IMG/VR virus record: IMGVR_UViG_3300027759_002554
Location: 1 to 38,178 of that record
Length of the DNA stretch: 38,178 bases
Strand: one strand, 5' to 3'
Origin: a virus
Shown here: positions 3,838-32,429 of the stretch, one piece after another
Layout of the letters: every line of letters starts with the position of its first letter
How positions within the stretch are numbered: the stretch's first letter is position 1
The notes under the pieces: model-generated
Told to the model about the DNA's origin: nothing
The model's input: the letters and a program-made list of their open reading frames with translations, nothing else
Databases searched by the model: none
Translations under genes and position numbers: made by a program

Positions 3838-3861
3838 TTTTATCCTTTATGATATAAATTT

Positions 3862-4297: not shown

Positions 4298-4306
4298 TTT
4301 GTTTCC

Positions 4307-4387: not shown

Positions 4388-4467
4388 TTGATATGCACTC
4401 CTTTTGGCTGTGTCATACAAATATATATGCAACAACTAAGTGTTTTCACTAGTATTCCGTGTCTAAT

Positions 4468-4680: not shown

Positions 4681-4790
4681 TTTTCCTTTGCTTTTTTCGC
4701 TTCACTTACAATTTTCTTAATTACTTCCCAAGTTGGCTGTGCTAACCAACCGACAAATGCACCGTATATGAACCATTCAAGTTGAACCAT
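4674..4790 (-). CDS. Very small protein, 38 aa, membrane-associated
   Basis: The start is MVQLEWFIYGAFVGWLAQP, a hydrophobic aromatic segment, followed by a Lys-rich amphipathic helix (VIKKIVSEAKKAKEK) and a final Trp. AAGGA lies seven bases before the ATG, a clear ribosome site. It overlaps the upstream gene by 14 bases and the start of the 70-aa membrane protein by 7, so all three are likely coupled. Function unknown. Confidence 0.6.
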   Translation of the reverse strand: MVQLEWFIYGAFVGWLAQPTWEVIKKIVSEAKKAKEKW

Positions 4791-7889: not shown

Positions 7890-7892
7890 TCT

Positions 7893-14531: not shown

Positions 14532-14974
14532 TTTGGTGCCTCAGCCGCTCTGTTGTGCGCTTCAATAAATTCTTTTGGTATCTCGCATTGACCGCCAGGA
14601 AGAAACTTAGTATCATACTTAACGATTTCTTTATCTATATATTTAACAATGTCTTCACCACGGGTTTTGATGTATTCAGTCTTCTTTACAACTTTTTCAA
14701 CTATCTTCACATTCTCCTGTGCTGATTCTACCGCAGCCGCTTCTACTTTAGCTTCCATCTCTTTTACTCTAGCTTGCCATGCTTCTTCATTTGATATTGC
14801 ACCAGCCATATAAGTTCCAAGCGCAATCAGGACAACAGAAACCGCTTGTATTGGTGTCCGATACACATATACAAGCGGAATGAATTTCATTATGAATGTT
14901 GCTACTAGTCCTAATAGACCTGCAAAAAATATTGCATAGAATATCCAATTAGGTAACCATTGCAAAATCCACAT
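14528..14974 (-). CDS. i-spanin-like (Rz-type) inner-membrane coiled-coil protein
   Basis: Two hydrophobic segments (about 9-34 and 42-60) anchor a long charged helix at 63-118 (EEAWQARVKEMEAKVEAAAV onward), which is a strong coiled-coil candidate. The end carries GGQCEIPKEFIEAHNRAAE. This is the layout of an i-spanin, with the coiled coil spanning the periplasm to meet the lipoprotein encoded next. A difference from classical Rz is that there are two membrane segments, not one. Its stop overlaps the o-spanin start by four bases. Confidence 0.77.
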   Translation of the reverse strand: MWILQWLPNWIFYAIFFAGLLGLVATFIMKFIPLVYVYRTPIQAVSVVLIALGTYMAGAISNEEAWQARVKEMEAKVEAAAVESAQENVKIVEKVVKKTEYIKTRGEDIVKYIDKEIVKYDTKFLPGGQCEIPKEFIEAHNRAAEAPK

Positions 14975-15312
14975 TATCTGTTACCTTTTCCGTACCTTAG
15001 ATACACCATAGCACCAGTTTGTTCATCTTCAAGAATGATTGCTTCATGCCAATTCTTGTTAGCATACTCACTAACTTCTTTAGCGATATCTGGATCGCCA
15101 AGATAAGATTCAAAACGAACACCTTTGCGCTTTAGCATCTTAGCCATCACAAAAGATTTTGTTGGTACTGTGAAGACGGTAGAACCAGCAAACTTCTTGC
15201 GTTTCTTTACACCTGGTTCCGCCTGATTTGGTAAATTTGGATTAGGCACACCAATGCCTGCTACAGCACCACCGCCTACAGAATTAGTTGGAGCATCTTC
15301 TTTTATAGTCAT
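14974..15312 (-). CDS. Hypothetical protein with 'TNSVGGGAVAGIGV' motif, 112 aa
   Basis: The N-terminus is Gly-rich: MTIKEDAPTNSVGGGAVAGI, then a Pro/Asn linker. In other T4-type phages I know a similar motif near the N-terminus of proteins annotated only as hypothetical. The first residues contain an IKE|D site of the (L/I/V)xE type recognised by T4-like prohead proteases. The remainder is a compact alpha/beta domain (FAGSTVFTVPTKSFVMAKML; GAMVYLRYGKGN). It could be a small internal or structural protein. It sits at the border of the head-cargo-like block and the lysis genes. Confidence 0.62.
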   Translation of the reverse strand: MTIKEDAPTNSVGGGAVAGIGVPNPNLPNQAEPGVKKRKKFAGSTVFTVPTKSFVMAKMLKRKGVRFESYLGDPDIAKEVSEYANKNWHEAIILEDEQTGAMVYLRYGKGNR

Positions 15313-15703: not shown

Positions 15704-16132
15704 TTAATCTTCTTCGTCTTCTCCCTCAATACCAGAAGCCAATAATTCTTCTATGCCTGCTTCATCATTAATCTCAGCATAGAAATCATAATAACCTTCA
15801 TCGTTGAGGCTGTATAGGATATACAACAATCCCGATCCTAATGATGCATCACCAAATTGAGTTACATCTATAACAATTTCATCACCATCTGGATCCATAC
15901 CATACATTGGTGGCATGTCTAGACCAAATCTATGCAATACCTTACGTACTTTCTGGAATCCAGATTCTGGCGATAAAAAGATATCATTCAGTTCTATAGT
16001 AAAAACTGAGTTTATCTTAGCAACTAGCACAGGATTATTCACCGATAATGATTGCTTATCGTTGGGCTCATGTGCCATGATAGCTTGACCGGGTTGGATT
16101 TCCTCGGTCAAGTATGCCTTAAAGTTAATCAT
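15704..16132 (-). CDS. Acidic protein with capsid-targeting-like N-terminus, 142 aa
   Basis: The start MINFKAYLTEE fits the pattern M-x(1-2)-(F/Y)-x-x-(F/Y)-L-x-E that I also see in three other proteins of this window. It resembles the capsid-targeting peptide of T4 internal head proteins, which the prohead protease removes after an LxE site (here LTE|E). The rest is acidic, with PESGFQKVRKVLHRFG, PDGDEIVIDVTQ and a very acidic tail (EGEDEED). It shares a base with the gene on its other side. If the targeting reading is right, the mature protein starts at residue 11 and lies inside the capsid. Confidence 0.68.
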   Translation of the reverse strand: MINFKAYLTEEIQPGQAIMAHEPNDKQSLSVNNPVLVAKINSVFTIELNDIFLSPESGFQKVRKVLHRFGLDMPPMYGMDPDGDEIVIDVTQFGDASLGSGLLYILYSLNDEGYYDFYAEINDEAGIEELLASGIEGEDEED

Positions 16133-16749
16133 TAACTATTTGGGAATATGGTGTTATCGGCCGCGGTATCAGCAACAAATACTGCGGAAGCAATACCTGT
16201 AGCGTTAACGTTACCTAAACTACCCATAGCAACTAGAGTTTCGGTTTGACTACGACCAGCACGACCACCTAGTGTAAATGTGAATACTGCATTACTAGTG
16301 CCAAGGCCATTAGCAAGAACACCAACTGGAGGAATCAAATAATTTCCGCCGTCATTAATAGTGAATGATGTATTTTGAATCCTATTATTAGCATCAACAG
16401 TAACCAAAACGTTAGCTTGATTTGCACCAACACCACCGCCAGTGAAAGTCAGGTAACCACTTGAGGCATTAGCCGCGCCAGTATTAGCAGTAATGCTAAT
16501 GATTGGTCCTGTACCGCGACTAACAAGAACCCAACCAGCATGTTGCGGATGTGTATTTGAGGTCATTGATACTGTTTGTTCAGTAGTATCAACACCAAAA
16601 ATGCCAGTAGTTTCACGCAATCCAGTACTAAAAGCGCCGATTTGTGTATTACCAAACATTTGTGATCCAGTAATAGCGGTATTTGCGCCAGCAACTCCTG
16701 CAAATTTTGGTGCGCCGTTTGCGGCGTCTGAGTTAGTCCATAGTGACAT
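16132..16749 (-). CDS. Beta-rich Gly/Ala/Thr/Asn protein, probable structural protein, 205 aa
   Basis: The composition (Gly, Ala, Asn, Thr; few Lys) and repeated strand-loop pattern (YLTFTGGGVGANQANVLVTV; NGGNYLIPPVG-like segments) mark it as a virion protein. A decoration, neck or fibre protein are all possible. The N-terminus MSLWTNSDAANGAPKFAG recalls small conserved T4-type proteins annotated as structural. AAGGAG lies before the ATG, and a CATAAATA late-promoter element is 26 bases upstream, so it heads its own late transcript. No enzymatic motif is seen. Confidence 0.68.
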   Translation of the reverse strand: MSLWTNSDAANGAPKFAGVAGANTAITGSQMFGNTQIGAFSTGLRETTGIFGVDTTEQTVSMTSNTHPQHAGWVLVSRGTGPIISITANTGAANASSGYLTFTGGGVGANQANVLVTVDANNRIQNTSFTINDGGNYLIPPVGVLANGLGTSNAVFTFTLGGRAGRSQTETLVAMGSLGNVNATGIASAVFVADTAADNTIFPNS

Positions 16750-16774
16750 TTAAGTCTCCTTATTGTTATTGTTA

Positions 16775-16782
16775 TATTTATG
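16775..16782 (-). promoter_or_regulatory. Late-promoter-like element (CATAAATA)
   Basis: It lies 26 bases before the ATG of the 205-aa structural-type gene, in the gap after the 615-aa gene. It differs from TATAAATA only in the first base, a position that varies in T4-type late promoters of other phages. Confidence 0.55.
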
Positions 16783-16784
16783 AA

Positions 16785-18632
16785 TTAATCTTGCTTCATT
16801 ATCTGTGAAGACAACTCTGGTTCTGCTTCAAAAGTATCTTTTTTAGCTTTTTCTTTAGCTTTAGATTTCGCATTTGTTGCTAAATCTTTAACCATACCAG
16901 CAGTTCTTGATAGTGACCGTTTCGCTGGTGTATCAATTCTGTCTAGTGGATCATTTACATCCGCAGCCTCTTTGATACCAGCTTGTCTACGAGCCGCTTT
17001 TTTAGCGATATCTTTTGTTCTGGACATGGGTGTATGTACTGCACCAGATTTGTCTTTAACTTTACCTATAGCTTTTTTTGTTGGTTCATCAAATGGCAAC
17101 TTTGGTTCTTTATTGATTACATTATCTTCTACAATAACTTCTTCATTCTTAGGAGAAACTAAAGTGTGGTTCTTTGTTGGTTGTTTAGCTGAACCAGAAG
17201 AAAATTTACCAGCCATGGCTGCTTCACCATTACGCTCAGACCTTTCGCGGTCTTCCCTAGCTTTCTTTAATGCCATCTGCATTCTGATTGCTGGTGATAG
17301 TGCTTCATCCATACGACCATTTGATGCAAGTCTTGCTTTACGTCTTGCGGCTGCAAAACCAGCACCCATTGGCAATTTCTTTTGAGAATCATCTTTGCCA
17401 TATTTCTTTTTCAGGTACTTATCAACCTTACGTGCATATTCATCTTTTACTTCTTCTTTCATTTCTTCTTTGATATGACCATACTTTTTCTTGTACCAGT
17501 CAGCCATACCATGTGTCTTGCGATAGTGGCGCACAGTAGCAGAATCATTTGCTTGGTCACGATACTTATTTTCAGCAGTAGTATTGTGCGACTTCATAGC
17601 TTCGGCTGCTTTGTGTGCATCCTTAGCAATGTGTACCAACTCGGCATCAGTCTTTTTATGATACTCATGTCCTTCAAGTGGATGACGCTGTGATTGGCGA
17701 CCTTCTTCTAAAGCCTTATGCATAGGTTTTTTACCTGCTTTTTTCATAGCAATTGCAATGGCTGCTTGTTGTGCAGGACTACTTGCTTCATCAATATCTT
17801 CTTTTTTGAGGGCTTGCGTTTTCTTTAATATTTCTTCTGATGGTGCGCCTTCACTACCTGGCTTACGCATACGTTCGCCGCTACCATTTTTAATACGTTC
17901 ACGTTTAGCACGAATATTTGCCCACAAGCCTTTTTCTTCTACAACAACTTCTTCATCGACTTCACTCATCATGTAGTTTGAAACTGTTGAAATGTAATCT
18001 TCCGCAAGAGTAATCTTAGATTGTACCCACTCAGGTAGATTATCATTGTCTTCTAACATATCATGCACTCTTTGAGCATTATTGATGATACTTTGTAGTT
18101 GACCACGTGCCATATCGCCTTCATAGTCGTATTCAGACTTCTCTTTGGCTTCCGAAACAGTTTTCCAACCACCGCCTTTTGACTTATACCACTTTGATGC
18201 CCAGCCATTAGCATACGCGGAAGGATAAACATCAAACTTAGATTTTGCTTGCGCTATAGCCCTTGACCACAATTCTGGATTAGTAGGCTTGTTTTTTTCG
18301 TCTAGTTGTTCCATATCTTCATTTACCTTATTTGTAACATTAATGGGAGCACCTTGTCTTTCAGGATTAGGATCTTCTTTTCTTTTTCTTCTGACAGCCG
18401 ATGCTTTTTCTTTTTTACTTAAAGAATTTCTCAATTCTCTTGACATACATTTTGGTTTAGGTTCACCAGGTTCTCTTGCACAATCGCCAACAACTTCACC
18501 CTTACTGTTAACTCTTTTCCAATCGCCTTCAGGATGATTTGGGTTAAACCAATTACGCAAATCTTCTTGCATAGCCTGCGGTTCACCCACGGCATATCGG
18601 ATGCTTTTGAAAACATCTGATACTTTTTTCAT
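16785..18632 (-). CDS. Lys-rich modular protein, putative head-internal polyprotein, 615 aa
   Basis: The protein is a chain of short modules, very rich in Lys, Arg, Glu and Ala, with almost no hydrophobic core. Modules: 24-99 (NWF, KPKCMSRELRNSLSKKE, VRRKRKEDPNPERQ), 115-158 (NPELWSRAIAQAK... PSAYANGWASKWYKSKGGGW, a DUF5872-like unit), 197-224 (LPEWVQSKITLAEDYISTV), 237-265 (KRERIKNGSGERMRKPGSEG), 284-303 (SPAQQAAIAIAMKKAGKKP), 311-390, 392-440, 444-490 and 556-600. Between them are (L/I/V/M)xE sites: LDE112, VSE161, VEE233, IDE282, LEE310, MDE443, IVE502 and IKE555, mostly followed by A, G, K or D. This suggests cutting by the prohead protease into small basic peptides. It overlaps its upstream neighbour by four bases. 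Confidence 0.72.
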   Translation of the reverse strand: MKKVSDVFKSIRYAVGEPQAMQEDLRNWFNPNHPEGDWKRVNSKGEVVGDCAREPGEPKPKCMSRELRNSLSKKEKASAVRRKRKEDPNPERQGAPINVTNKVNEDMEQLDEKNKPTNPELWSRAIAQAKSKFDVYPSAYANGWASKWYKSKGGGWKTVSEAKEKSEYDYEGDMARGQLQSIINNAQRVHDMLEDNDNLPEWVQSKITLAEDYISTVSNYMMSEVDEEVVVEEKGLWANIRAKRERIKNGSGERMRKPGSEGAPSEEILKKTQALKKEDIDEASSPAQQAAIAIAMKKAGKKPMHKALEEGRQSQRHPLEGHEYHKKTDAELVHIAKDAHKAAEAMKSHNTTAENKYRDQANDSATVRHYRKTHGMADWYKKKYGHIKEEMKEEVKDEYARKVDKYLKKKYGKDDSQKKLPMGAGFAAARRKARLASNGRMDEALSPAIRMQMALKKAREDRERSERNGEAAMAGKFSSGSAKQPTKNHTLVSPKNEEVIVEDNVINKEPKLPFDEPTKKAIGKVKDKSGAVHTPMSRTKDIAKKAARRQAGIKEAADVNDPLDRIDTPAKRSLSRTAGMVKDLATNAKSKAKEKAKKDTFEAEPELSSQIMKQD

Positions 18633-19573
18633 TCTTTAACACCACCAGCTTTAAGCATAGCAATACGGTCACGGAATCCAGCAATACCTGGCTTAATGTC
18701 TTTTGCGGCCTTCTTCAATTCGGGCGATGCATTAGGAATGTGTTTCATTGTAGTTTTTGCTTGATGACTTGATTCATCAACACTAGACATTTTAACACCG
18801 TTGATAGCGTTGATATCTTGTTCTTCTCTGGTTAATTTATTAACTGCTCTTTTGATACCAGCATTTCTTCTTTTTTGACCAAGTTCAACTTTATCATACA
18901 TACTAACTCTTTCAGGTTTGTCACCGTCATTGGCGTAGTCTATATAACCATGGTCATATGCCGTTTTTGATTTATCGTCAGCGGCTTTCTTGATATATGA
19001 ACCTAAAGTAGTTTTAGACAACTCATCAATTTGTTCAATATCTTCTCTGGTTAATTTATTAACTGCTCTTTTGATACCAGCATTTCTCTGTTTTTGGTCA
19101 ACTTCAGTTTTATTTTCTATAGGTGTGTCCTTGGGTGGGTAAGTTGTTCGTCCACCTCTGGAGTCCCACCAGCCGTTACCATATGCCCTATCTGCTTTAT
19201 CATTAGTGGCTTTCTTGATATATGACCCTAAAGTAGTTTTAGATAATTCTTCAATTTTCTCAATATCTTCTTTTACTTCTTTTTTATCTTCTGGTTCATC
19301 TTTTTGTTTTGAACCGCCGTAACGTGAGCCTTGTTTCATACCAGCGCCACCATTTGGTTGTGGACCAGCACGTTTCTTAACGTCATCAAGCATATCTTGC
19401 CAACCTTCTTTTACAGGTTTAGCGCCAGAACGCAAAGCGGCTAAATCAGCAGAATCAATCTCTGATTTTTTTCCTGCAATTTTAGCAATGCTTTTTTGTT
19501 TTGCTGATAGTTCTTCGGCCATAACTTTCTTTACGGCTTCAGCAACTGATTGTGTAATTTTATCGGTGTACAT
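18629..19573 (-). CDS. Lys-rich modular protein with tandem duplication, putative head-internal polyprotein, 314 aa
   Basis: It starts MYTDKITQSVAEAVKKVMAE and has the same charged, low-hydrophobic character as its 615-aa neighbour. Residues 103-177 and 178-250 are a tandem duplication: each copy begins DIE(K/Q)I(E/D)ELSKTTLGSY, has IKKA, then a variable Gly/Tyr part, and ends QxRNAGIKRAVNKLTRE. Each copy is headed by an IxE site (IEE109, IDE184), and VKE56, VKE102 and VDE267 occur elsewhere. The C-terminal 60 residues are a separate helical unit (ASPELKKAAKDIKPGIAGFR). The layout fits a precursor cut into repeated peptides. Role as internal head protein is inferred. Confidence 0.72.
   Translation of the reverse strand: MYTDKITQSVAEAVKKVMAEELSAKQKSIAKIAGKKSEIDSADLAALRSGAKPVKEGWQDMLDDVKKRAGPQPNGGAGMKQGSRYGGSKQKDEPEDKKEVKEDIEKIEELSKTTLGSYIKKATNDKADRAYGNGWWDSRGGRTTYPPKDTPIENKTEVDQKQRNAGIKRAVNKLTREDIEQIDELSKTTLGSYIKKAADDKSKTAYDHGYIDYANDGDKPERVSMYDKVELGQKRRNAGIKRAVNKLTREEQDINAINGVKMSSVDESSHQAKTTMKHIPNASPELKKAAKDIKPGIAGFRDRIAMLKAGGVKE
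18824..19267 (-). repeat. Tandem duplication of about 225 bases inside the 314-aa gene
   Basis: Unit 1 spans about 19043-19267 and unit 2 about 18824-19042. The 3' ends of the units (as read on the minus strand) share roughly 40 identical bases covering the AGIKRAVNKLTRE codons, and the 5' ends share most bases over the ELSKTTLGSYIKKA codons. The middles have diverged. Near-identical ends with a variable centre suggest a fairly recent duplication or ongoing exchange between units. Confidence 0.85.
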
Positions 19574-19597
19574 AGTTTCTCCTAGTTTTTGTTATTT

Positions 19598-19891
19598 TTA
19601 GCAATTCCATTTTCTTAGTGCGAGTGCTTTGCGTGTGGGTTCACCATTTGGCTTTTTCATTGGTCCATCAACACCGCCCATTCTTGCACAAAATGATTTA
19701 CGGCGTTTGTATGATTTTGATCCTGGCTTTAGTTTACTTGGTTCAGTGGTAACAGCCATAGATAATTTAGAACCAGGATTGGCTGCACGATAAGATGCAA
19801 TACCTTTTCTGTTTAGACCACCCTCTGGATTTTGTCCTTCTTTGCGTGTCCATGCAGGAGATTCAAATAAAAATTCTTTGTAAGTTTTCAT
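19598..19891 (-). CDS. Basic protein with capsid-targeting-like N-terminus, 97 aa
   Basis: The first residues, MKTYKEFLFES, are very close to the capsid-targeting peptide of T4 internal protein III as I remember it (MKTYQEFIAE), with an LFE|S site for prohead protease. The mature part is strongly basic: WTRKEGQNPEGGLNRKGIAS, KPGSKSYKRRKSFCARMGG and PTRKALALRKWNC. This Cys-Arg-Met-Gly plus ALRKWxC pattern occurs in small phage proteins of unknown function (DUF6321-like by memory). A basic protein packed with DNA is consistent. Its ATG directly follows the TAA of the 719-aa gene. Confidence 0.75.
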   Translation of the reverse strand: MKTYKEFLFESPAWTRKEGQNPEGGLNRKGIASYRAANPGSKLSMAVTTEPSKLKPGSKSYKRRKSFCARMGGVDGPMKKPNGEPTRKALALRKWNC

Positions 19892-22051
19892 TTATACTTT
19901 CCTCTTCAATGGAGTTGCTTTGCCATTCTTACCAATGACTTCACCCATGTCACGGCCGATAGATTCACCTCCAGCGGCCATTGACATTCCGGATTCTATA
20001 CCTTGGTCTATTTCGTTGATTTTTTTCTTCCACTGCTCTTTGATTTTGGAGTAGTAGATTTTACCGGTAATACGACTTTCTCTTCCGGTTGGATCGTAGG
20101 CGCTTCCGTCACCAATGTGGGCGCTGGAGTCTCCACAATGCTCGGTAATGGTAACGGTTCCACTGCCTGGGGCGCAGGTGATGGTGCCTGATATTTCTGA
20201 ATGTCCAATGGATGTTTCTCTTCCACTGGTGGTGTTTGTTTCTTGAAGAAACTCTTGATTAGTTTTAACATCTGTACTCTCCTTTAATTTAACCATGTAA
20301 CCTTTTTCAACTCTCACAACTTCACCGTTTTGGCGATGTGCTTCTTTAGCCGCGTTGTTTCTTATAGCAAACAATCTTGGTCTACTGTCTTTACCAACAT
20401 ATGTATGACCGTCAGAATGCTTAACTTTTTGTTTGAATGGGCTGATTTCTTCCAACAATTCAAATTCATCGTCTATAGATTCATTAACTTTTTTCTTTGG
20501 AACACTTCCGCTGGCTCCACTGGCTGTAACCTTATTTGCCATCTTAGCCATTCTTTCTTGATCCGCATGAGTAGGATCTTGTACAAGTTTATCATGCACA
20601 GAATGATGTGTCACCTTACCATTCTTACCATACCGTCCAAAGCCAAAATATTGCAAACCTAATTTATGTGCTTGTTCAGCGGCATTAGATTCTGCTGGGC
20701 CCATTTGTTCAGCACCTTTCTTAGGCACAGGCAAGGTATCTTTCTTAGATAATTCACCTGCAATCCATGTAGATGCTTGTTTATTTTTAGGAGGTCTTTT
20801 AACAAAGTCTTGTATGCCTTTATATAATTGTAGCAACTCATCTTTCTTTGCTTTCACCACATCTGGAGAGGCACTACGCAAATCTTCGGAGTTATCAAAC
20901 TCCATATAATTTTTACCAAACAACTTAGCCATTTCTGGTCTTGCATTGTTTACTGCATCCCATTTTTCTTTACGAATGTTTTCTGGCACAGTACGACCAC
21001 CACGCTGACCACGTTCAATGTTACGCTTTGATGAAATTTCATCTTTGGTGTTAACTGCAATCATTGAAGTTTCGTAACCAAGTTCTTCTAATTCTTTTTT
21101 GATTTTAGCATACTTCTTTGGATCATCGCCAGTGCCATTGATGATTAGTCCATTACGACCAAGCAATGCTAAACGTTGGCGCAATTCGGTCAAATCTTTT
21201 GCTTTACCGCGAATAATATCCCGAGCCTCTTTTTCAGATGCTGGCATTGTCTTGTCTAGATTTCTTTTATCCATCAAGAATTCTAGTGCCTTATCTGAAT
21301 TGATTTCTGTTAGTCCATGACCAGCAAGTGTGTTATCCAACACATAGTCTTTACCTGAACCTGGTCCGCCAGATAAAAATACTGCTTTGAAGATTGCTTT
21401 GTCGTGGACGCCTTCGGTCAATAACTGCTCAAAGAAATAGTTTATATCTTCCTTGAGATTCATACCTTTACGCACATCATGGTACAATTCTTTTGCATGT
21501 TCTGGTGCTACATGCTTAGGAATACCTTTTTTGAATTCTTTGAAATTACCTGTTTCAGCGTGACCACGCATCTTGGATGCAGACATACCAGAAACACCTT
21601 CAGCATCAGGATCACGTTCACCTGCTGAATGGACAGTTATGTGTTTGAAGTTATATAATGCGCCTTTATGTTTACCATTATACTGCGCTAATTTAGTTTT
21701 ATATTCATCAACGCGGTCAGAACCTGCAATCATATGCAAGTGTGTAGCCCCGGCTTTATGTAACTTAGCCGCGTGTTGTAGAAATGTTGGATGTTCTTTG
21801 TCTGAGGTGCTCAGATTTGTATCTGGAAAGAATCTTTTTGCGTGTTTGAGTTTATCTTGTGCAGATAAAGGATTCTTCTTGGCATCTTGTGAGTGAGAGA
21901 TTACAACATGGTGTGTTCCACCAACTTCTTTTGCAACCTCTTTTACTTTGTCAACAAGTTTGGCGTGGCCAACTGTTGGTGGATTCATACGTCCAAAGGC
22001 TAGAACGGCATGCTTTTCTTTTTGTTCTTCTAGGAACCGCTTAAAATCCAT
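19892..22051 (-). CDS. Polyprotein: HxGH-type nucleotidyltransferase + P-loop kinase (zeta-like) + small modules, 719 aa, with capsid-targeting-like N-terminus
   Basis: Domains in order: MDFKRFLEEQ (targeting-like, LEE9|Q); nucleotidyltransferase at about 14-195 with GRMNPPTVGH (T26-x-G28-H29) and a GMSASKMR motif near 155-162, as in NMN/cytidylyltransferases; then LTE213|G; a P-loop kinase at about 220-400 with LSGGPGSGKD (G228-K234) and a later RNIERGQRGGRTVPE stretch resembling zeta-toxin-type kinases; a module with LQYFGFGRYGKNGKVTHHS (465-483); VNE524|S, LEE535|I; a small beta unit (HTYVGKDSRPRLFAIRNNAA); LKE591, LQE604 and a C-terminal Gly/Thr-rich stretch. The order nucleotidyltransferase then kinase recalls NadR. 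It heads a late transcript (CATAAATA 39 bases upstream). Substrates are not known. Confidence 0.8.
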   Translation of the reverse strand: MDFKRFLEEQKEKHAVLAFGRMNPPTVGHAKLVDKVKEVAKEVGGTHHVVISHSQDAKKNPLSAQDKLKHAKRFFPDTNLSTSDKEHPTFLQHAAKLHKAGATHLHMIAGSDRVDEYKTKLAQYNGKHKGALYNFKHITVHSAGERDPDAEGVSGMSASKMRGHAETGNFKEFKKGIPKHVAPEHAKELYHDVRKGMNLKEDINYFFEQLLTEGVHDKAIFKAVFLSGGPGSGKDYVLDNTLAGHGLTEINSDKALEFLMDKRNLDKTMPASEKEARDIIRGKAKDLTELRQRLALLGRNGLIINGTGDDPKKYAKIKKELEELGYETSMIAVNTKDEISSKRNIERGQRGGRTVPENIRKEKWDAVNNARPEMAKLFGKNYMEFDNSEDLRSASPDVVKAKKDELLQLYKGIQDFVKRPPKNKQASTWIAGELSKKDTLPVPKKGAEQMGPAESNAAEQAHKLGLQYFGFGRYGKNGKVTHHSVHDKLVQDPTHADQERMAKMANKVTASGASGSVPKKKVNESIDDEFELLEEISPFKQKVKHSDGHTYVGKDSRPRLFAIRNNAAKEAHRQNGEVVRVEKGYMVKLKESTDVKTNQEFLQETNTTSGRETSIGHSEISGTITCAPGSGTVTITEHCGDSSAHIGDGSAYDPTGRESRITGKIYYSKIKEQWKKKINEIDQGIESGMSMAAGGESIGRDMGEVIGKNGKATPLKRKV
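20008..20271 (-). CDS. Overprinted small protein, 87 aa, nested in another frame of the 719-aa gene
   Basis: AAGGAG lies seven bases before the ATG, one of the best ribosome sites in the window, although the site is inside another gene. The protein has a basic amphipathic start (MLKLIKSFFKKQ), a Pro/Glu/Val-rich middle (PSPAPQAVEPLPLPS, IQPEEKVVLPV) and a Lys/Ser-rich end (KSKSSGRKKSTK), a make-up common in real small phage proteins. The host frame over the same bases (residues 594-680) is a low-complexity Gly/Ser/Thr stretch, which suggests that one of the two frames arose later. Function unknown. Confidence 0.6.
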   Translation of the reverse strand: MLKLIKSFFKKQTPPVEEKHPLDIQKYQAPSPAPQAVEPLPLPSIVETPAPTLVTEAPTIQPEEKVVLPVKSTTPKSKSSGRKKSTK

Positions 22052-22089: not shown

Positions 22090-22097
22090 TATTTATG
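22090..22097 (-). promoter_or_regulatory. Late-promoter-like element (CATAAATA) before the 719-aa gene
   Basis: It overlaps the stop codon of the GDPD-like gene and lies 39 bases before the ATG of the 719-aa polyprotein gene. It marks the border between the sugar cassette and the head-cargo-like block. Confidence 0.55.
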
Positions 22098-22545
22098 TAT
22101 TTAGCAGTTTTACGTAGTCAGACATTACTCCAAATGTGATTCTGTGCTTGATATCATCTAATGCATACACTCTTTCGGGCACTCCAAGTATGAATGTTTG
22201 ACCAACAGATTCTTTTCCTGGATATCCAACGGTGTATCCCCATGTAGTTAGAACATAATCCTCATCGGTGTGCCAAAAAGCATGTAAATGTCCTCTCAAT
22301 GTAGTATCGAGTGCTTCACGATTCTTACAATGATTGAGAATAAACGGCTTTCTTTCAAATAACCAGTCAAAAGTTACATTATGAAATTTATCATCATGCC
22401 CAAGTTTTAGTTGCCCATCAATATTCCATAAGTCAACTTCAACCATATATCCTTCATCAATAGCTTCTTGGAGATATGCTGGATCATTTTCATGTTCGGC
22501 CATACGACCTTCTAAGTTTCCTCTGTGTGCAATATACATTGTCAT
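22093..22545 (-). CDS. Small glycerophosphodiester phosphodiesterase-like protein, 150 aa
   Basis: The N-terminus matches the GDPD active site: IAHRGN (H7-R8-G9), a HEND near 17-20, and VEVDLW (E36, D38) followed by LGHDD. GDPD enzymes hydrolyse glycerophosphodiesters with a metal at the Glu-Asp-Glu site. This protein is far shorter than usual (about 230-250 aa), so the C-terminal half of the barrel is missing or reduced. It could act on a lipid-linked or glycerol-phosphate glycan made by the sugar cassette upstream, or be a degenerate domain. Its start overlaps the nucleotidyltransferase-RpiB gene by four bases. Confidence 0.72.
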   Translation of the reverse strand: MTMYIAHRGNLEGRMAEHENDPAYLQEAIDEGYMVEVDLWNIDGQLKLGHDDKFHNVTFDWLFERKPFILNHCKNREALDTTLRGHLHAFWHTDEDYVLTTWGYTVGYPGKESVGQTFILGVPERVYALDDIKHRITFGVMSDYVKLLNT

Positions 22546-23696
22546 TTTAATACCTTATTCAATCTAGTGAAATGTCTGCCGCCATCAAACGAGGTAGTAC
22601 ACCAAATTTGAATCATCTTACGCATCATTTCTTTGTCAACATATTTAGATGGAACTGCAAAATGATTAGCACAATTGTGTCTTACTGCCATCTCAGCAGT
22701 AAATTCATCAAAGCAAAGTGCGGATATCAATCCTGCTTTATTAGCCGAAATGTTTACACCTTGACCAGAACGACAGAATGAAACGCCAAAGTCGCAATCA
22801 TTGTTGTTTATCAACTGCGCTGATTGACTAACATAATCATAATAGTCACATGGCTTATTTACATATGTACCACAATCAATGTATGGTATTAAATATTCTT
22901 CTAGTAAGTCAATGAATTGTTCCTTCAATTCATATCCAGAATGGTCACAAGCAACAGCAATTGGCTTATCACCAAAGTTAGGCAATACTCTATCACAGAA
23001 AAATTCAAATGTTGCTGGTGTGCCAAGAATGTGCATCTTCTCTGTATCACATGCAGTAACTTTCAATCTATCACGGATCATGTAGTTGTAAATTGGTGCA
23101 ATATAATACTCACCCTTGATTAACAATTCTTGGTCAATCGCTTCCCATGCGTATTGCAGGAACATTTTACCAGTCTTGAAATAATATAGTCCAACGTTAG
23201 CGTGTTCACTAATAACTTCTTTCTCAACCACACGGGATACAATACCGCCTTCACCAATCTCAGCATAGCTGTGGTCAGGACTATTTGCTTGGAATGTTAA
23301 TAGAAAGCCATCGGTATCACTTGAGATACAATCTGGCTTGAACTGAGGAAGAAAATATACATCAGGAGTATAAATGTAAAGAGGTAATTCATTGTCTATA
23401 TACCTTTCTGCGAGTGTGCAAGTTTCTAGTGCGCCTTGTGTTACATGGTCAACTGTCACGATGGAGATATCATCACCAAACTTTTGCTTCAAAATCTTAT
23501 CAATGCTAAAATTGTAAATATGATCCAATCTAACAATAAAAATCAAGTTACAATCAGATGTGTCAATAGATTCTAATGACCAATCAATAACATGTTTGCC
23601 TTTAGCCAAAATCAAAGGCTTTGGCATCAAGTAACCAGCATCAATAAATCGTTGTGCTTTACCAGCAATCGGCAAAACTAAATTATATTTTTTCAT
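22542..23696 (-). CDS. Bifunctional sugar nucleotidyltransferase / RpiB-type sugar-phosphate isomerase fusion
   Basis: Residues 1 to about 235 are a GT-A-fold sugar-1-phosphate nucleotidyltransferase: LPIAGKAQRF, PKPLI (K27 region), DHVTQGALET, YTPDVY and KGEYYIAPIYN. Residues about 240-384 are a complete RpiB/LacAB isomerase: ACDHSGYELK, the catalytic Cys in GVSFCRSGQGVNISANKAG, VRHNCANHFAVP with the base His, and the phosphate-binding end FDGGRHFTRLN. RpiB enzymes interconvert aldose- and ketose-phosphates. One polypeptide would thus cover the first and last steps of making an activated sugar. It lies directly after the PfkB kinase and HAD phosphatase genes. The sugar and the nucleotide cannot be read from the sequence. 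Confidence 0.86.
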   Translation of the reverse strand: MKKYNLVLPIAGKAQRFIDAGYLMPKPLILAKGKHVIDWSLESIDTSDCNLIFIVRLDHIYNFSIDKILKQKFGDDISIVTVDHVTQGALETCTLAERYIDNELPLYIYTPDVYFLPQFKPDCISSDTDGFLLTFQANSPDHSYAEIGEGGIVSRVVEKEVISEHANVGLYYFKTGKMFLQYAWEAIDQELLIKGEYYIAPIYNYMIRDRLKVTACDTEKMHILGTPATFEFFCDRVLPNFGDKPIAVACDHSGYELKEQFIDLLEEYLIPYIDCGTYVNKPCDYYDYVSQSAQLINNNDCDFGVSFCRSGQGVNISANKAGLISALCFDEFTAEMAVRHNCANHFAVPSKYVDKEMMRKMIQIWCTTSFDGGRHFTRLNKVLK

Positions 23697-24354
23697 TATA
23701 TTTCCTAATCAAATCAGCAGTGGTAATGTGTGCAAATTCTATAGCACCATGCAATGACCACTTCTTATGTATAGCGTATAAAAAGCATGATGCAAACATA
23801 TCACCAGCGCCTAGAACGTTTGCTTCTTCTACCATATGAGTTCTGTGCATCAAGTATGGCTGTACAAGATTGCCACTAAAAATAACACTTCCTTTTGGTG
23901 AATGAGAAATTACCAATCCAACAGAATAATCTTTCAGTTTTTGAACATCATGTTCATCATCAGATACGAAAAGATAGTCCACATATTGAAGTAGGTTATA
24001 GTCTAACTCTCTACCTTTACATAAGTCGGCACTAACAATACCTCTTAAATTTGGCAGAAAAGATGTATCTTCCAATTCATTTAAATAAAGCACATGTGAA
24101 ATTCTTGATGGCTTTATTTTTGTCTGTAGATAAGTTTCGTTTAAGTTTGCTTTGGATGTTCTTGTAGATGTTTTTCTATCAATAGTAATCTCAGCAGTAC
24201 CAACGACAGTAGGCATCAAACCAACTTGTAGATTTTTATCCAATTCATTGAATGTTCTCCAGCAGTTATACAAACCACCAAGAGACATAGTTTCTTTGTC
24301 GCCATCAATAATAGTATCATTGGTCAAATGACCATATAAAGTAATATCAAACAT
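23683..24354 (-). CDS. PfkB-family sugar kinase
   Basis: This 223-aa protein has the PfkB end motif NVLGAGDMFASCFLYA, with the catalytic Asp in GAGD, and an early GGLYNCWRTF resembling the GG..N motif near the N-terminus. It is shorter than most PfkB enzymes (about 300 aa), losing part of the lid region. In the heptose pathway a PfkB domain (in HldE) phosphorylates C1 of a sugar 7-phosphate; the same role is likely here given the HAD phosphatase and nucleotidyltransferase on either side. The overlap with both neighbours (1 and 14 bases) marks an operon. Confidence 0.82.
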   Translation of the reverse strand: MFDITLYGHLTNDTIIDGDKETMSLGGLYNCWRTFNELDKNLQVGLMPTVVGTAEITIDRKTSTRTSKANLNETYLQTKIKPSRISHVLYLNELEDTSFLPNLRGIVSADLCKGRELDYNLLQYVDYLFVSDDEHDVQKLKDYSVGLVISHSPKGSVIFSGNLVQPYLMHRTHMVEEANVLGAGDMFASCFLYAIHKKWSLHGAIEFAHITTADLIRKYNEKI

Positions 24355-24890
24355 TAAAATTTCTCACGTAAATCTAATTCATAAACTTTATCTAAGTGGT
24401 CAGCAAAGTTGCCTGTGCTGATTAGTCCCTTAGCTTCCAGATAATCATACATCTTTGCTATCAAATTTTCGCCACCATTTCCATCCAAAACTCTAGCATT
24501 TTGTCTAACAATATTTGGCGAATCAATTGGACAAAATGCAACACCAACGAGTTGCATTAGATGCACATCAAAGATATCATCACCAATAAAGACTATCTCA
24601 TGTGGATGAACTTTATAATCTTCACATATCTTCGTTAGATAGTCCGACTTGTCTCTGTGTTCACCACTAAATCGATTAACGATTACATCAATCTTTCTGT
24701 TCTCACCAATTGCAACATTGAATGGATCACCAGTTAGAAATATAACTTCAAGACCTAGCGCACGAAAGCGTTTGATTGCAGTCCAGTCTTTATCACAGAA
24801 TGTTTTGTAGCGAACTGTTCCTTCCCTATCGTAGTATTTACGACCATCGGTCATTACACCATCAACATCAAGAATTATTAGTTTCAACAT
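24354..24890 (-). CDS. KdsC-like HAD phosphatase
   Basis: The 178-aa protein carries HAD motif I as LDVDGVMTDG (nucleophile D8, acid D10), motif II FLTGDP, and motif IV IGDDIFDV, with the short cap-less layout of KdsC/C1 phosphatases. KdsC removes phosphate from KDO 8-phosphate; GmhB does the similar job in heptose synthesis. With the kinase downstream it would remove the terminal phosphate of a sugar bisphosphate (inference). It overlaps the upstream gene by 23 bases and shares one base with the kinase start. Confidence 0.84.
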   Translation of the reverse strand: MLKLIILDVDGVMTDGRKYYDREGTVRYKTFCDKDWTAIKRFRALGLEVIFLTGDPFNVAIGENRKIDVIVNRFSGEHRDKSDYLTKICEDYKVHPHEIVFIGDDIFDVHLMQLVGVAFCPIDSPNIVRQNARVLDGNGGENLIAKMYDYLEAKGLISTGNFADHLDKVYELDLREKF

Positions 24891-25611
24891 TTAACTTAAA
24901 CTTTCTCAAAGTATCTTGTCTATCAACAAAATTAGATTGGCGACCATAATGCTGTTTAAGTATTGATGGATACTTATTGAACAGATAGTCATTCATTTCA
25001 TCCATAGCTTTTTGTTTGTCATAATAGCTATCACGGAATGGTTGATGAATCATGCCAGAATGAACGACATGGGCTGGGCATTGGAACAAATCATAGAATG
25101 TCTTATCAATGCCCCATGCAATATCTAAGTCCCAATGACCAATAAACTCCATTAAGAACCTGAATTTTTCTTCGGTGAAGAAGCAAGAACCCATCTCAAT
25201 AAAGTTTGTTTCTGAAAAATGACAAGATGGATCATTGAATAGTGGCTGATAAATCAAACTAGAATCATGTGGCATAGATAGTTGCCAGTATTGAAACTTG
25301 AATGTTTGTGCATACATAAGACCAATATTGAAGTCTTTGTAACCGGTAATCAAGTCATCATCAACACAACCAATGTAGTTGTATTTACCAATAGGAATAT
25401 CTTTTGCGACTGCTTGCATGATTTGCCATTTATGACCTTTGTGGCGTATCATGTGGTCATAAGAACCTGGCTCAGGATTGAAGTCATTGTAAACTACTAA
25501 TAGTGTTTCGTAGTCACGGTCATTGTTTGTCCAACGCCAATGATCTTCCTCTTTCCAACGAGGATCGTGTGGCATTTCCATACCAACTGGACATATAATT
25601 AAATTAGCCAT
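24868..25611 (-). CDS. Glycosyltransferase-like protein, DUF707 type, 247 aa
   Basis: Features recall the DUF707 group of putative glycosyltransferases: KGHKWQIMQAV, a VDDDL acidic motif near residues 85-89 that may bind metal and nucleotide sugar, IYQPLFNDP, FIEMGSCFFTEEKFRFL and DIAWGIDKTF. No signal peptide is seen. It would act in the cytoplasm on a lipid- or protein-linked acceptor. Identity of donor and acceptor is unknown. It overlaps both neighbours and stands in the sugar cassette, which supports the call. Confidence 0.66.
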   Translation of the reverse strand: MANLIICPVGMEMPHDPRWKEEDHWRWTNNDRDYETLLVVYNDFNPEPGSYDHMIRHKGHKWQIMQAVAKDIPIGKYNYIGCVDDDLITGYKDFNIGLMYAQTFKFQYWQLSMPHDSSLIYQPLFNDPSCHFSETNFIEMGSCFFTEEKFRFLMEFIGHWDLDIAWGIDKTFYDLFQCPAHVVHSGMIHQPFRDSYYDKQKAMDEMNDYLFNKYPSILKQHYGRQSNFVDRQDTLRKFKLNVETNNS

Positions 25612-26296
25612 ATTTTGCTCTCACTTCAGGATGTTTGCAAGGATGTTCTGGCACATCTTTGCGACATAGTGTATAAAATGTATTGACATTACTTATCTGA
25701 CATTCCTTAGAGATAAAATGCATTTCTTCAATTGGCATCTTCTTGTCTAAGAAATTAATTAAGCCATGCGTATCTGGATAGAATCTGCCTCTTGGCCATC
25801 CATAAGTCTCACGCATCGCATCTTTAACAAATTCGCTATACTTATGATTCCAAATGTAGAAGCAATCACACGCAAATCTATGTGTTCTCCACCATTCTGG
25901 ATCTTCTGGAAATAGAAAGTTGAATTTGTTGAAGTCAATATCTTCATCGGCTATAACTTTACTAAAATGAATATCAAATCTAGTAAATATAATAACATCC
26001 AAATCTTCACCGATGAATGCGTCATGCAGTTTTGATTTGGATGTAAATGCATCAGAGGTTGCAAAGTCTGAGTAAACAACTTTCTTTGGCTTTACAGCAT
26101 CTAAAAAGTTATTCTCAGATTCTTGTGATGAAAATGGATAGGTCGATGCGTAAAGAATTGCTTCGTGACCTTTATCAATAAATGGCTGAATAAGCATTTC
26201 TTGTATGCCCTTCCAGCAATGAGTGAAGTCACGACTATATCCAGTTCTTGGATCGGTACCTTCAGTTATACCGTAGAAACCAAATCCAATCTTCAT
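25604..26296 (-). CDS. Putative glycosyltransferase-like protein, 230 aa
   Basis: I recognise no named domain with certainty. The start (MKIGFGFYGITEGTDPRTGY) and the segment VIIFTRFDIHFSK, with an Arg-x-Asp after a hydrophobic strand, recall GT-A-fold enzymes of polysaccharide clusters. The middle has PEDPEWWRTHRFACDCFYIW. Its ATG overlaps the TGA of the methyltransferase gene, and it overlaps the DUF707-like gene by eight bases. A sugar-transfer role is inferred mostly from neighbours. Confidence 0.58.
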   Translation of the reverse strand: MKIGFGFYGITEGTDPRTGYSRDFTHCWKGIQEMLIQPFIDKGHEAILYASTYPFSSQESENNFLDAVKPKKVVYSDFATSDAFTSKSKLHDAFIGEDLDVIIFTRFDIHFSKVIADEDIDFNKFNFLFPEDPEWWRTHRFACDCFYIWNHKYSEFVKDAMRETYGWPRGRFYPDTHGLINFLDKKMPIEEMHFISKECQISNVNTFYTLCRKDVPEHPCKHPEVRAKYG

Positions 26297-27552
26297 ACAG
26301 GATGGTAATCTACTACGGAGTAAAGTGTGCCCTCAATTTTGAATTGAGGAAAATGCTTTACAAAGATATCTTTTCCATCTGGGCGCATAGTCTTTATCTT
26401 CTTAACGATTTCATCGTAAAAGTTCCACGCAAGTGGAATAAAAACAAGTCCAGCTTTAAAATATTCTAGATGCTGTGATGAATAGATTGGTACATTAACA
26501 CCAGGTGCATATAGACCTTGCTTCAATGGATTATCATCAATGATAAAGTCTGGTCCAATGCCAGCAAAATTCATCAGAGTGTTTCCTTTTGCTGGTGCAC
26601 CATAGCCAACAACAGTTTTTCCTTCTGATTTCATTTTCTTAATAAAGTCTGCAAACTGCTTTACATTGTGAAGACAATCAGCTTCGTACTTGTCATAAGT
26701 TTCTGGCGAATACAAACCTCTGTTTGTTTCATGTGAAATAAGATTCTCAATTGTACGCGGTGCTTTTGCAAATTTTGAAATGATAAAGATATAACTCATG
26801 CCATGAACAGGAGATTTAACAACATCAATCAAATTCAATCCAGCACGTTTACATAGTGCATCAATAGATTTCACATTGTAGAAAGAAAGATGTTCGTGGT
26901 AAATTGTATCAAACTCACCATTCAAAATCATGTCACATTGGGAGGTCGTAGCAAAGAGCAAACTGTCTTTGTGCATGACGTTCCTAATGTTTTGTAATAA
27001 TTCAAGCTGGTTGAAGTTGTGTGCGAATGCGTTTTGGCAGGTGATGATATCAAACTTTTCGTAGCTAAATTCTTTACCTGTGAAGTATCCGCAGACAACT
27101 TTGTGTCTTTCGGAAGAAGTAGGAAACAAATTTTCTGCTGGGTCAACTCCATATGTTTGCGCTCCTCTGTCTTGAAATGAATTTAATTGACTTCCATCAT
27201 TACAACCAATATCTAGTACATTAATTGGCTTAGTTCCATACTTTTCTGCGGCAAATTCAGCAAACCAATCAAAGTAATCCAATTGAGTTTTAGCAGTACC
27301 AGAAACATACGCATAATCTTTATACATCAAATCTGGATCAACTCTCACACTCAACTGAACATGAAAGCATTCCTTACAACGATTGATAGCAAGTGGAAAG
27401 TATGATTCGGTATCATAAGGATCTTTCTTGTATGAGTTTGCAAGTGGTTGTTTAGCCAAATCTAATACTGGTACCAAATCTGTACAGCCACAGGCAATAC
27501 ATTCTTCAATCATTTCATATTCTGGATTCATCATAGTATATTCCGAATTCAT
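26293..27552 (-). CDS. Sugar C-methyltransferase (three-domain, SAM-dependent)
   Basis: The layout is that of NDP-sugar C-methyltransferases such as TylC3/NovU relatives: a zinc-binding N-terminus (CIACGC, then CKECF), a SAM-binding Rossmann domain with VLDIGCNDGSQL, a CQNAFAHNFN segment and DTIYHEHLSFYN, which holds the His/Glu motif typical of this family, and a C-terminal Rossmann-like domain with VGYGAPAKGNTL. These enzymes methylate a ketosugar carbon, usually after a 4,6-dehydratase, and one is encoded right upstream. I use the ATG that overlaps the TGA of that gene; upstream codons in frame are in the overlap. Confidence 0.88.
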   Translation of the reverse strand: MNSEYTMMNPEYEMIEECIACGCTDLVPVLDLAKQPLANSYKKDPYDTESYFPLAINRCKECFHVQLSVRVDPDLMYKDYAYVSGTAKTQLDYFDWFAEFAAEKYGTKPINVLDIGCNDGSQLNSFQDRGAQTYGVDPAENLFPTSSERHKVVCGYFTGKEFSYEKFDIITCQNAFAHNFNQLELLQNIRNVMHKDSLLFATTSQCDMILNGEFDTIYHEHLSFYNVKSIDALCKRAGLNLIDVVKSPVHGMSYIFIISKFAKAPRTIENLISHETNRGLYSPETYDKYEADCLHNVKQFADFIKKMKSEGKTVVGYGAPAKGNTLMNFAGIGPDFIIDDNPLKQGLYAPGVNVPIYSSQHLEYFKAGLVFIPLAWNFYDEIVKKIKTMRPDGKDIFVKHFPQFKIEGTLYSVVDYHPV

Positions 27553-30120: not shown

Positions 30121-30432
30121 TTACTGACCTGGTGTGTCTTTCTTGTATTTCTTTGCCAAGATAGAAGTGCCATCATTACCTGCGCCAGATGGTGGTAAAA
30201 TGTCAGCATCAGGTACTTTTTTTTCTTCTTGTACACTTTTATGTAGTTGTACTCCAGTAACCTTCTGCACAAGTTCCCAAACTTCTTTTGTTTTCTTTTG
30301 GGCAAGGTATTCATCAAACTTTTTCTTTTGCTCTGGAGTTGCTTTTTGTTTGAACTTAATTAACTCCATGATGCCAATGTTACCAGCATAAGATGCTTCA
30401 TTTATTTTCGCTTGTTCTTTGAAATTGTTCAT
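30121..30432 (-). CDS. Small late protein with IxE site, 103 aa
   Basis: The N-terminus MNNFKEQAKINEASYAG has Phe at position 4 and an INE|A site, so it too could be a prohead-protease-trimmed targeting segment. The next part, NIGIMELIKFKQKATPEQKK, is a pattern I know from small T4-type proteins of unknown role. The C-terminal third is Pro/Gly/Lys-rich. I use the ATG sharing its A with the TAA of the 411-aa gene (TAATG), with GGAG six bases before. It is the last gene of the late transcript from TATAAATA at 32422. Confidence 0.66.
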   Translation of the reverse strand: MNNFKEQAKINEASYAGNIGIMELIKFKQKATPEQKKKFDEYLAQKKTKEVWELVQKVTGVQLHKSVQEEKKVPDADILPPSGAGNDGTSILAKKYKKDTPGQ

Positions 30433-31667
30433 TACTTGCTCCAATTTTTTGCGGCATTAAAGTTAGCGTGTGCAAACTCTAGTCTATCAATCAACTTAAC
30501 TGCATTGCCTTTTAATTTATCTACAGCTACAAAGCCTTCTGGATTTGTAATCTTAAAACCATCATCTGTGCGTAAGAAAGTATTGGTAACTTGTTTCATA
30601 CCTTGCAACTTCTTCACAATCATGTTCTTTGAATCTACAAGCATGTTCATTAAGTCAAATATATTTTTCAATTCGCTTGCATTGTTGCGATAGAACCGCA
30701 TAATCTCATTCTTCTCCGCTTGGCGTTTCAGTTTTGTTTCTTCTTTTTTAGCATCAAGAATTTCTTTGTTAAGTTTAGCTTCAACCCACTTAATCAATTC
30801 TTGTGTATGTTTGTATGTATCTTTGATTGCTTGACCTTCACGCACTTTGGTATTGTTGAAAGTCTTAATTTGAACAAGAAGATTCTCAGATGCAGAAATT
30901 CTATTCAATGTCATTGAGTTTAGTTTCTGAAATATCGTACCAGCTTGAGATAACAAGTATGTAACATCTTTAGTTTCTTGTTCGGTAAACGATGCAGTAC
31001 CAGATGCATCAACAAAGTATGCATCACGGAACCAAACATCTTTGGTTGTCTTCAAGTGATTGATATCAATGTTAAAGGATGCTTTCATATCATTAAAAGT
31101 TTTACCCGTGTATGAAGTATGAAATACAATACCCATTTGAGCAGATAGCATACTTCTTGCTAATGCGCTGGTACTTGGCACAGCATATACGATTGTGTTT
31201 GGTTGGAATGTGACATATGATTCACCTTCAATACTTTGCTTCTTCAAATCACCTTTAGCAAACATCATATCGCCTTGAAGAACGCCAGTGATTCCTAGTT
31301 TTGGTAAATAACGCAATGCTACTTTTAGTTTAGCATTCAATCCTTCTGATGGATGATTGTTGTCAATATCAGCATCTGTGTAATTCAGTTTTGGATTTAC
31401 GTTGAAGACGCCTTTAGTGCCAACAAAGAATTTGCCATTGTCTGGATTGATACCAGCAAACACAGCTGGTGCACCATCCCATTTTGTAGTTATGTTTACT
31501 TTTGATTCTGCGTGACCAGCAAGCATATCACGCAAGGAACGAAGGAATGCAATCGCATCTCTTGCGCCAGCAACACCACGATTTAATACTTCATCCTCAA
31601 TGTGTTCAAGATGAAGATTGGCGCCTTCTTTCTTTACGCCTTCTGTTAGGAATTCTGTGAATTTCAT
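30432..31667 (-). CDS. Putative nucleotidyltransferase/ligase-like protein with capsid-targeting-like N-terminus, 411 aa
   Basis: The start MKFTEFLTEG has an LTE|G site as in T4-type capsid-targeted proteins. Inside is TTKWDGAPAVFAG, a K62-x-D64-G65 match to motif I of covalent nucleotidyltransferases (DNA and RNA ligases, capping enzymes), where the Lys is adenylylated. Possible partners are GVLQGDMMF (128-136; compare motif III, GEL-type), NPEGFVAV (376-383; motif IV, EGxV) and K384-x-K386 or K391 (motif V). The KxK lies closer to EGFV than in known ligases, so this is not proven. From memory, relatives are annotated as DUF6267. It overlaps the 245-aa gene by four bases and is expressed late. 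Confidence 0.7.
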   Translation of the reverse strand: MKFTEFLTEGVKKEGANLHLEHIEDEVLNRGVAGARDAIAFLRSLRDMLAGHAESKVNITTKWDGAPAVFAGINPDNGKFFVGTKGVFNVNPKLNYTDADIDNNHPSEGLNAKLKVALRYLPKLGITGVLQGDMMFAKGDLKKQSIEGESYVTFQPNTIVYAVPSTSALARSMLSAQMGIVFHTSYTGKTFNDMKASFNIDINHLKTTKDVWFRDAYFVDASGTASFTEQETKDVTYLLSQAGTIFQKLNSMTLNRISASENLLVQIKTFNNTKVREGQAIKDTYKHTQELIKWVEAKLNKEILDAKKEETKLKRQAEKNEIMRFYRNNASELKNIFDLMNMLVDSKNMIVKKLQGMKQVTNTFLRTDDGFKITNPEGFVAVDKLKGNAVKLIDRLEFAHANFNAAKNWSK

Positions 31668-32421: not shown

Positions 32422-32429
32422 TATTTATA
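32422..32429 (-). promoter_or_regulatory. T4-type late promoter (TATAAATA)
   Basis: An exact match, overlapping the last codons of the helicase gene and 21 bases before the ATG of the 245-aa gene. A leader of about 15 bases with AGGAG follows. It separates early replication genes from the late block with the ligase-like protein. Confidence 0.75.

Follow-up and report, generated by a model that had tools for sequence, protein, structure and literature searches.

Capsid-targeting-like N-terminal peptides on enzymes and fused proteins suggest an extended set of T4-type head cargo in an uncultured aquatic phage

The window analysed here is an IMG/VR virus contig of 38,178 bases, probably a genome fragment, from a phage known from environmental DNA alone. 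Its genes are of the T4-like myovirus type (DNA polymerase, UvsX, gp41 helicase, primase, ribonucleotide reductase) and their names are based on resemblance and on synteny with Pelagibacter phage HTVC008M. The latter, together with Stenotrophomonas phage DLP6, Methylophilales phage Melnitz and cyanophages, is among the isolates closest to the largest protein discussed below (719 aa). Two gene blocks contain four proteins (142, 97, 719 and 411 aa) which, according to an earlier note made from the sequence of the window, start with one kind of peptide, comparable to the capsid-targeting sequence (CTS) of the T4 internal proteins (IPs). All four open reading frames are indeed present in full length on the minus strand (Table 1). 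A scan of all start codons of the window gave strict matches to the motif at true gene starts for these four alone, the remaining matches being internal start codons of known genes.

Mutational studies of the CTS of T4 IPIII have shown that its first 10 residues suffice, positions 4 and 7 being responsible for targeting and positions 8 and 10 for processing (PMC9026906). Both targeting positions, 4 and 7 (or 3 and 6), are aromatic in all four window peptides, and the processing positions (L/I 8, E 10) are filled in each of them (LTE, LFE, LEE, LTE); the two shorter peptides, those of the 719-aa and 411-aa proteins, have one residue less at the front than the T4 CTS. The resemblance of the 97-aa protein to IPIII, which the earlier note had cited, is real, as both IPII and IPIII begin with MKTYQEFIAE/A (here and below a slash marks the known or predicted cut). 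The mature parts of the tagged proteins match NMNAT, kinase, DUF6267 and DUF6321, and no IP family was found among their Pfam and PHROG matches. As for the 142-aa protein, it has close relatives in three loci and no family match. In the predicted structure of the 411-aa protein, residues 1-20 are disordered.

Table 1. Coordinates of the tagged genes, their peptides, modules and accompanying features in the window
Feature	Position	Strand	Remarks
142-aa cargo candidate	15704..16132	-	Small CTS genes similarly placed in L096, L097, L109, L110, L116, L118, L119
CTS of 142-aa protein, MINFKAYLTE/E	16103..16132	-	
97-aa DUF6321 cargo protein	19598..19891	-	DUF6321 7.7e-21 (Pfam)
CTS of 97-aa protein, MKTYKEFLFE/S	19862..19891	-	
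719-aa fused cargo protein	19892..22051	-	CTS, NMNAT/cytidylyltransferase, P-loop (Zeta/AAA_33-like) kinase, tail segments
CTS of 719-aa protein, MDFKRFLEE/Q	22025..22051	-	20/20 homologues: F3 and E9 invariant, [LI]xE present
NMNAT/cytidylyltransferase module, residues ~10-200	21452..22024	-	Homologues in virions of S-SM1, S-SZBM1, S-SCSM1, S-CREM2 (mass spectrometry)
Internal CTS-like junction NYFFEQLLTE/GVHDK, residues 204-213	21413..21442	-	Low-confidence segment 201-216 of the model, disordered
P-loop kinase module, residues 214-435	20747..21412	-	Matches Zeta toxin and adenylate kinases (Pfam, PDB sequences)
Internal site DDEFELLEE/ISPFK, residues 526-535	20447..20476	-	Low-confidence segment 510-548 of the model, disordered
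Internal site VKTNQEFLQE/TNTTSG, residues 595-604	20240..20269	-	Near IPIII MKTYQEFIAE; low-confidence segment 591-667 of the model, disordered
411-aa DUF6267 protein, second block	30432..31667	-	DUF6267 5.9e-114 (Pfam)
CTS of 411-aa protein, MKFTEFLTE/G	31641..31667	-	30 homologues: E9 invariant, F3 >=90%; then gapped variable linker
205-aa block member	16132..16749	-	Start like that of virion proteins S-SZBM1 gp136 and S-SCSM1 gp95 (MSLYGRTDS, MALWGNSDN); N-terminal resemblance alone
615-aa mosaic, no CTS	16785..18632	-	Short modules common to other cargo proteins; pieces of phrog_727, 16028, 27331
314-aa charged protein, no CTS	18629..19573	-	Two LSKTTLGSYIKKA modules, each directly after IxE
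Internal site of 314-aa protein, EDIEKIEE/LSKTTL	19247..19276	-	
Internal site of 314-aa protein, EDIEQIDE/LSKTTL	19022..19051	-	
Exact TATAAATA, late-promoter-like	32422..32429	-	First gene of the second block starts at 32401, 20 bases downstream
One-mismatch CATAAATA	22090-22097		Upstream of the first block

The frequency of the motif was estimated in a sample of 175 related loci (2.3 Mb of phage DNA, genes called; individual loci are denoted by L and a number). Its strict form follows 182 of 2431 distinct ATG gene starts and 10 of 14,816 internal methionines, which is an enrichment of about 100-fold at gene starts. Given this internal background rate, the occurrence of the motif in four of the approximately 55 window genes has P ~7e-8 and is not due to chance. 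Since gene counts of this kind are not phylogenetically independent, we also counted families: by their mature parts the 182 starts fall into at least 22. In the whole T4 genome the strict scan retrieved IPII, IPIII and gp61.1 and no others; relaxing the motif brings in two more, gp24 and Alt, each of them a head protein that undergoes processing. Four large related contigs, with 185-296 genes each, have 2-5 strict matches, most of which lie in the syntenic cargo cluster. As the motif is short and the sampling favoured the anchor families, one could ask whether the similarity reflects chance or common ancestry of one gene family; with such an enrichment, no comparable rate of the motif at internal methionines, unrelated mature parts in at least 22 families and genome-wide specificity in T4 and in the phages with virion proteomes, we regard this explanation as extremely improbable.

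The same scans gave several by-products. T4 gp61.1 (54 aa, MKTFKEFIKE/D; L194, NC_000866 18966-19130, minus strand) is a candidate unrecognised internal protein. Strict tags were also found on a DnaJ-domain protein (L164 8699-9697, minus strand), an adenylate kinase (L160 4464-5048) and a HAD-like protein (L146 2024-2776). Arrays of small paralogous CTS proteins (STSxxVF...IPIS) lie beside DUF6267 in L066, L073 and L075 and possibly represent a fast-evolving cargo set.

Published mass spectrometry (MS) of cyanophage virions makes it possible to ask whether proteins with this tag occur in particles. In virions of S-CREM2 it detected four proteins in addition to the structural ones: a SAM hydrolase, an APH/ChoK-like kinase, a cytidylyltransferase and a Cas9-like protein (PMC10665884). 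Strict-motif gene starts in S-CREM2 are three only, and they belong to three of these enzymes: SAM hydrolase (MKDFDSFLEE/F), APH-like kinase (MKRFDAFLTE/E) and cytidylyltransferase (MKNFSSFLTE/A). The Cas9-like protein has LRFASFMAE/A sixteen residues in, and gp13 (MKDLHSFLTE/Q) and gp136 (MQTFSMFFSE/D) are virion proteins too. NMNAT-like proteins were detected in virions of S-SZBM1 (PMC9146016), S-SCSM1 (PMC9602691) and S-SM1 (PMC3037559), and all three bear the strict motif (MRFRQFIIE/A, MKSFLQFLKE/A and MKKFSAFLNE/A, respectively). In the three genomes scanned as a whole, 5 of 8 strict-motif genes are virion-detected, the base rate being 127/719 (P = 0.006). Motif-bearing proteins are thus over-represented among the cyanophage virion proteins, NMNAT-like enzymes above all. 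The DUF6321 module forms the C-terminus of virion-detected S-SCSM1 gp29 and S-CREM2 gp137. The untagged DUF6267 homologues (S-CREM2 gp87, S-SZBM1 gp141 and S-SCSM1 gp257) were not detected in the virion proteomes of those phages.

The 719-aa protein is a fusion, in which Pfam recognises CTP_transf_like (6e-5), Zeta_toxin (7e-11) and AAA_33 (1.5e-6), PHROG recognises phrog_3041 and phrog_395 (cytidyltransferase), and the AlphaFold model shows folded domains with disordered linkers. The internal LxE sites noticed earlier do exist in it and are more specific than was claimed: those at 201, 213, 534/535, 591, 604 and 637 are in predicted disorder, and those at 249, 289 and 323 are inside the folded kinase of the model. 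The location of LxE sites at module junctions is a point that the earlier note missed. At the 526-535 site homologues hold a full internal CTS, for instance EEFENFLSE/AVTVTITGDT; the site at 595-604 is weakly conserved in homologues. The kinase is a separate gene in HTVC008M (gp129, beginning with MIPFILKE/GLYDPGIFKAFFL), is fused behind NMNAT in the window (NYFFEQLLTE/GVHDKAIFKAVFL), and stands alone in L167, with a textbook tag (MISFKQFLHE/GVNDPAIFKAVFL), and in L160 (MKQFKQIIQE/G). The triplet [LI]xE precedes FKA by exactly seven residues in 51/51 distinct kinases (near an N-terminus in 15, well inside a fusion in 36; background 1.2%), a count that comprises loci found with a scan pattern itself containing LxEG and many copies (LSEG, LNEG, LIEG, LHEG) out of reach of that pattern. 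In DUF6321, LxE precedes AW by exactly two residues in 27/30 distinct copies, N-terminal or (mostly) fused, and LSKxTLGSY is directly preceded by LxE in 10/10 distinct copies. Whole tags also occur inside proteins at module borders (LSFKQYLNE/VAAW, SFKSFINE/RCWPGYK, and the above-mentioned tag before AVTVTITGDT). The module LGLxYxGFG has no LxE within the 9 preceding residues, therefore not every module boundary carries a site.

These junctions could be interpreted in a different way, namely that only the N-terminal peptide is a CTS, the internal LxE remains uncut, and the fusions are delivered whole, LxEG being kept as the start of a folded module. Standalone and fused kinases all share an invariant LxEG, which is what one would expect of a structural residue, and T4 Alt is delivered nearly whole. 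However, several modules unrelated to each other have the same LxE at a fixed distance before them, the sites at junctions are in predicted disorder, and complete aromatic-bearing tags are found at internal junctions (SFKSFINE/RCWPGYK, compare standalone MKSFKTYITE/RCWPGYK). We therefore consider uncut delivery a plausible but not a favoured possibility.

As to the prohead protease, the cut in T4 gp23 is FGSFLTE/AEIGG. The equivalent site is LLTE/AP in S-CREM2 and ILTE/AAP in S-SZBM1, and eight IMG/VR relatives likewise have LxE/A or LxE/T; the sites in the capsid proteins of relatives also include QIIAE/ASP, and HTVC008M has FLGE/IA, i.e., LxE/I. The earlier note had named a capsid cut site of an unrelated type as contrary evidence; since relatives carry LxE/A or LxE/T at the gp23-equivalent position, the type found in them is the related one, the capsid protein of the window itself being unseen.

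The mapped CTS positions, the enrichment at gene starts, the recovery of the T4 IPs and the over-representation in virions support the capsid-targeting role that had been proposed for the peptide. We consider it highly probable that the tagged genes represent T4-type head cargo extended to enzymes, and that the fused cargo is probably cut by the prohead protease. Starting from what was directly observed (motif, enrichment, presence on virion-detected relatives, junction conservation), and borrowing from T4 the steps that should come after the tag, i.e., core binding, cleavage and ejection, we suppose the following course of events. The N-terminal peptide of 9-10 residues would attach to the prohead core, pulling the protein into the head; a gp21-type prohead protease would then cut at L/I-x-E, freeing the cargo before DNA packaging; and the freed cargo would leave the head with the DNA at infection. 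The tag carriers are enzymes (NMNAT-like nucleotidyltransferase, P-loop kinase, DUF6267) and small basic DUF6321 proteins. Cargo genes have been fused repeatedly, with the tag or the LxE site kept at the junction, and because these are kept there, the 719-aa protein is probably a polyprotein which the prohead protease cuts into NMNAT, kinase and tail pieces. With some reserve, we lean towards a general form of this reading, in which the whole group makes its cargo as polyproteins of enzyme and DNA-binding modules with CTS or LxE between them, and the protease, acting in trans, sets every module free in the head ahead of DNA packaging; the tag would be a mobile shipping label by which any gene product could become injected cargo. 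If this is true, it would account for the presence of NMNAT, SAM lyase, kinase and Cas9-like proteins in cyanophage virions.

Core binding would also be required of the tagged proteins if they were assembly-core components, involved in head building and not delivered to the host. IPIII mutants show head-assembly aberrations (PMC9026906), and several proteins of the block are charged and of low complexity, as could be expected for this role. However, the catalytic motifs of NMNAT and the kinase are conserved, and the enzymes vary between phages whereas the tag is constant, so a purely structural role seems unlikely to us.

Several points weigh against packaging and processing as proposed here. 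Head genes, including those of the capsid protein and prohead protease, are absent from the window contig, and cleavage of these proteins is presumed by analogy with T4. HTVC008M, which has the same cluster, gave no strict-motif gene start in a whole scan, its cluster proteins beginning with looser forms (MYNDLLVED, MLSFTGYSNLSEA, MIPFILKEG); the strict rule is therefore not universal. In the proteomic reports, the small strict-motif proteins S-SZBM1 gp191 and gp192 and S-SCSM1 gp30 are undetected in virions, and S-SCSM1 gp90 and gp92, cluster proteins with no clear tag, are in the virion, which means that the tag is not the sole way in. The same published data support homologues of NMNAT and DUF6321 and none of DUF6267, the kinase or the 142-aa protein. 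Finally, contamination by proteins abundant in the lysate is named as possible by the MS authors in two papers (PMC10665884, PMC9602691), in which case the N-terminal peptide would have some other role. In S-CREM2, however, exactly the three strict-tag genes are represented in the virion and the untagged DUF6267 homologue is absent, as it is in the other phages, and the same NMNAT recurs across independent virion studies; contamination thus appears quite improbable as the source of these enzymes.

The weak points of the case are the late promoters, the presence of DUF6267 in virions, and function. Late promoters were said to precede both blocks. This is correct for the second block, which has an exact match; in front of the first one there is a one-mismatch site only (Table 1). 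The numbers of such matches are not above chance (3 exact vs. 3.8 expected, 66 one-mismatch vs. 83 expected), and we rejected them as support. The 411-aa protein contains, conserved in 30 sequences, ligase motif I KxDG (K62-W-D-G) and motif IV EGxV (E377-G-F-V), and Foldseek gives several ligases among weak matches (best probability 0.44, E 0.46); profile comparison with T4 Rnl2 and gp30 gave no match. The motifs fit, but with such weak fold and profile comparisons we do not claim that DUF6267 is a ligase. Literature searches retrieved no paper naming DUF6321 or DUF6267. Possible functions of the cargo are early NAD supply, nucleic-acid end repair or counter-defence. The S-CREM2 genes of SAM lyase and Cas9-like protein (L186, minus strand, 3837-5081 and 7704-10313) would fit anti-restriction enzymes as injected cargo.

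The tag itself is already known from T4. The window peptides are like those of IPI, IPII and IPIII in position, length, residues and the LxE end, the tag is in both cases common to unrelated mature proteins, and the capsid-protein cut site in relatives of the window is of the same type; but T4 IPs are small and basic, whereas the window cargo includes enzymes and large fusions, with the tag recurring at module borders. T4 Alt, a packaged ADP-ribosyltransferase, is likewise a head-carried enzyme, and its start MELITELFDE/D fits the relaxed motif; it has no sequence relation to the window cargo and is a single enzyme rather than a set or a fusion. The multidomain polyvalent proteins (Iyer et al., 2017, PMC5512222) are predicted to accompany phage DNA on delivery and to be split into units, and zeta-toxin-like kinases are among their domains, which resembles the 719-aa protein with its several domains. 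There, however, an embedded metallopeptidase was proposed to cut, and here the sites fit the prohead protease in trans; no peptidase family was found in the window block with Pfam and PHROG, an embedded peptidase being common but not universal in polyvalent proteins. The anti-restriction protein DarB of P1 is a large protein sent into the head by an N-terminal signal (PMC9024508); phage, signal and protein have no known sequence relation to the window cargo. The virion NMNATs of S-SM1, S-SZBM1, S-SCSM1 and S-CREM2 are homologous enzymes from similarly composed clusters, and the accessible parts of the corresponding papers offer no packaging mechanism and do not mention the tag.

In our literature search, cyanophages and capsid targeting were named together only in the T4 review, where it is suggested that T4-like phages can use the CTS to pack varied proteins (PMC9026906). 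As far as the papers show, three points are new: the tag has spread over enzymes in aquatic T4-like phages, it can be linked to the unexplained enzymes of virions, and it has been retained within fused cargo. The motif provides a rule, applicable to sequence alone, for finding proteins packed and probably injected by T4-like phages, and this rule applies to a very abundant aquatic group whose cargo is almost all annotated as 'hypothetical'. It also offers a mechanism for a puzzle of several cyanophage proteomics papers, the recurrent NMNAT-like enzyme in virions, and polyprotein-like processing of phage cargo becomes testable by MS on existing isolates.

As for the remaining genes of the window, the 205-aa protein gave no significant tblastn match. 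Residues 25-171 of the 615-aa mosaic match S-SCSM1 gp29, which is a virion protein, and its IDE, LEE and LDE sites precede modules. The two cargo blocks are separated by a run of sugar-nucleotide, glycosyltransferase-like and HAD-like genes (22542-28613, minus strand). At 30121-30444 (minus strand), an in-frame ATG yields MNNFKEQAKINE/ASYAG, which is a long IPI-type tag. Small proteins resembling the N-arm of the capsid protein after the cut (GFTGAAAPEGPVAGYDPLM; APTNSVG) are encoded at 14974-15312 (minus strand) in the window and by S-CREM2 gp160 (L188) and S-SCSM1 gp97 (L237), the latter two being virion proteins.

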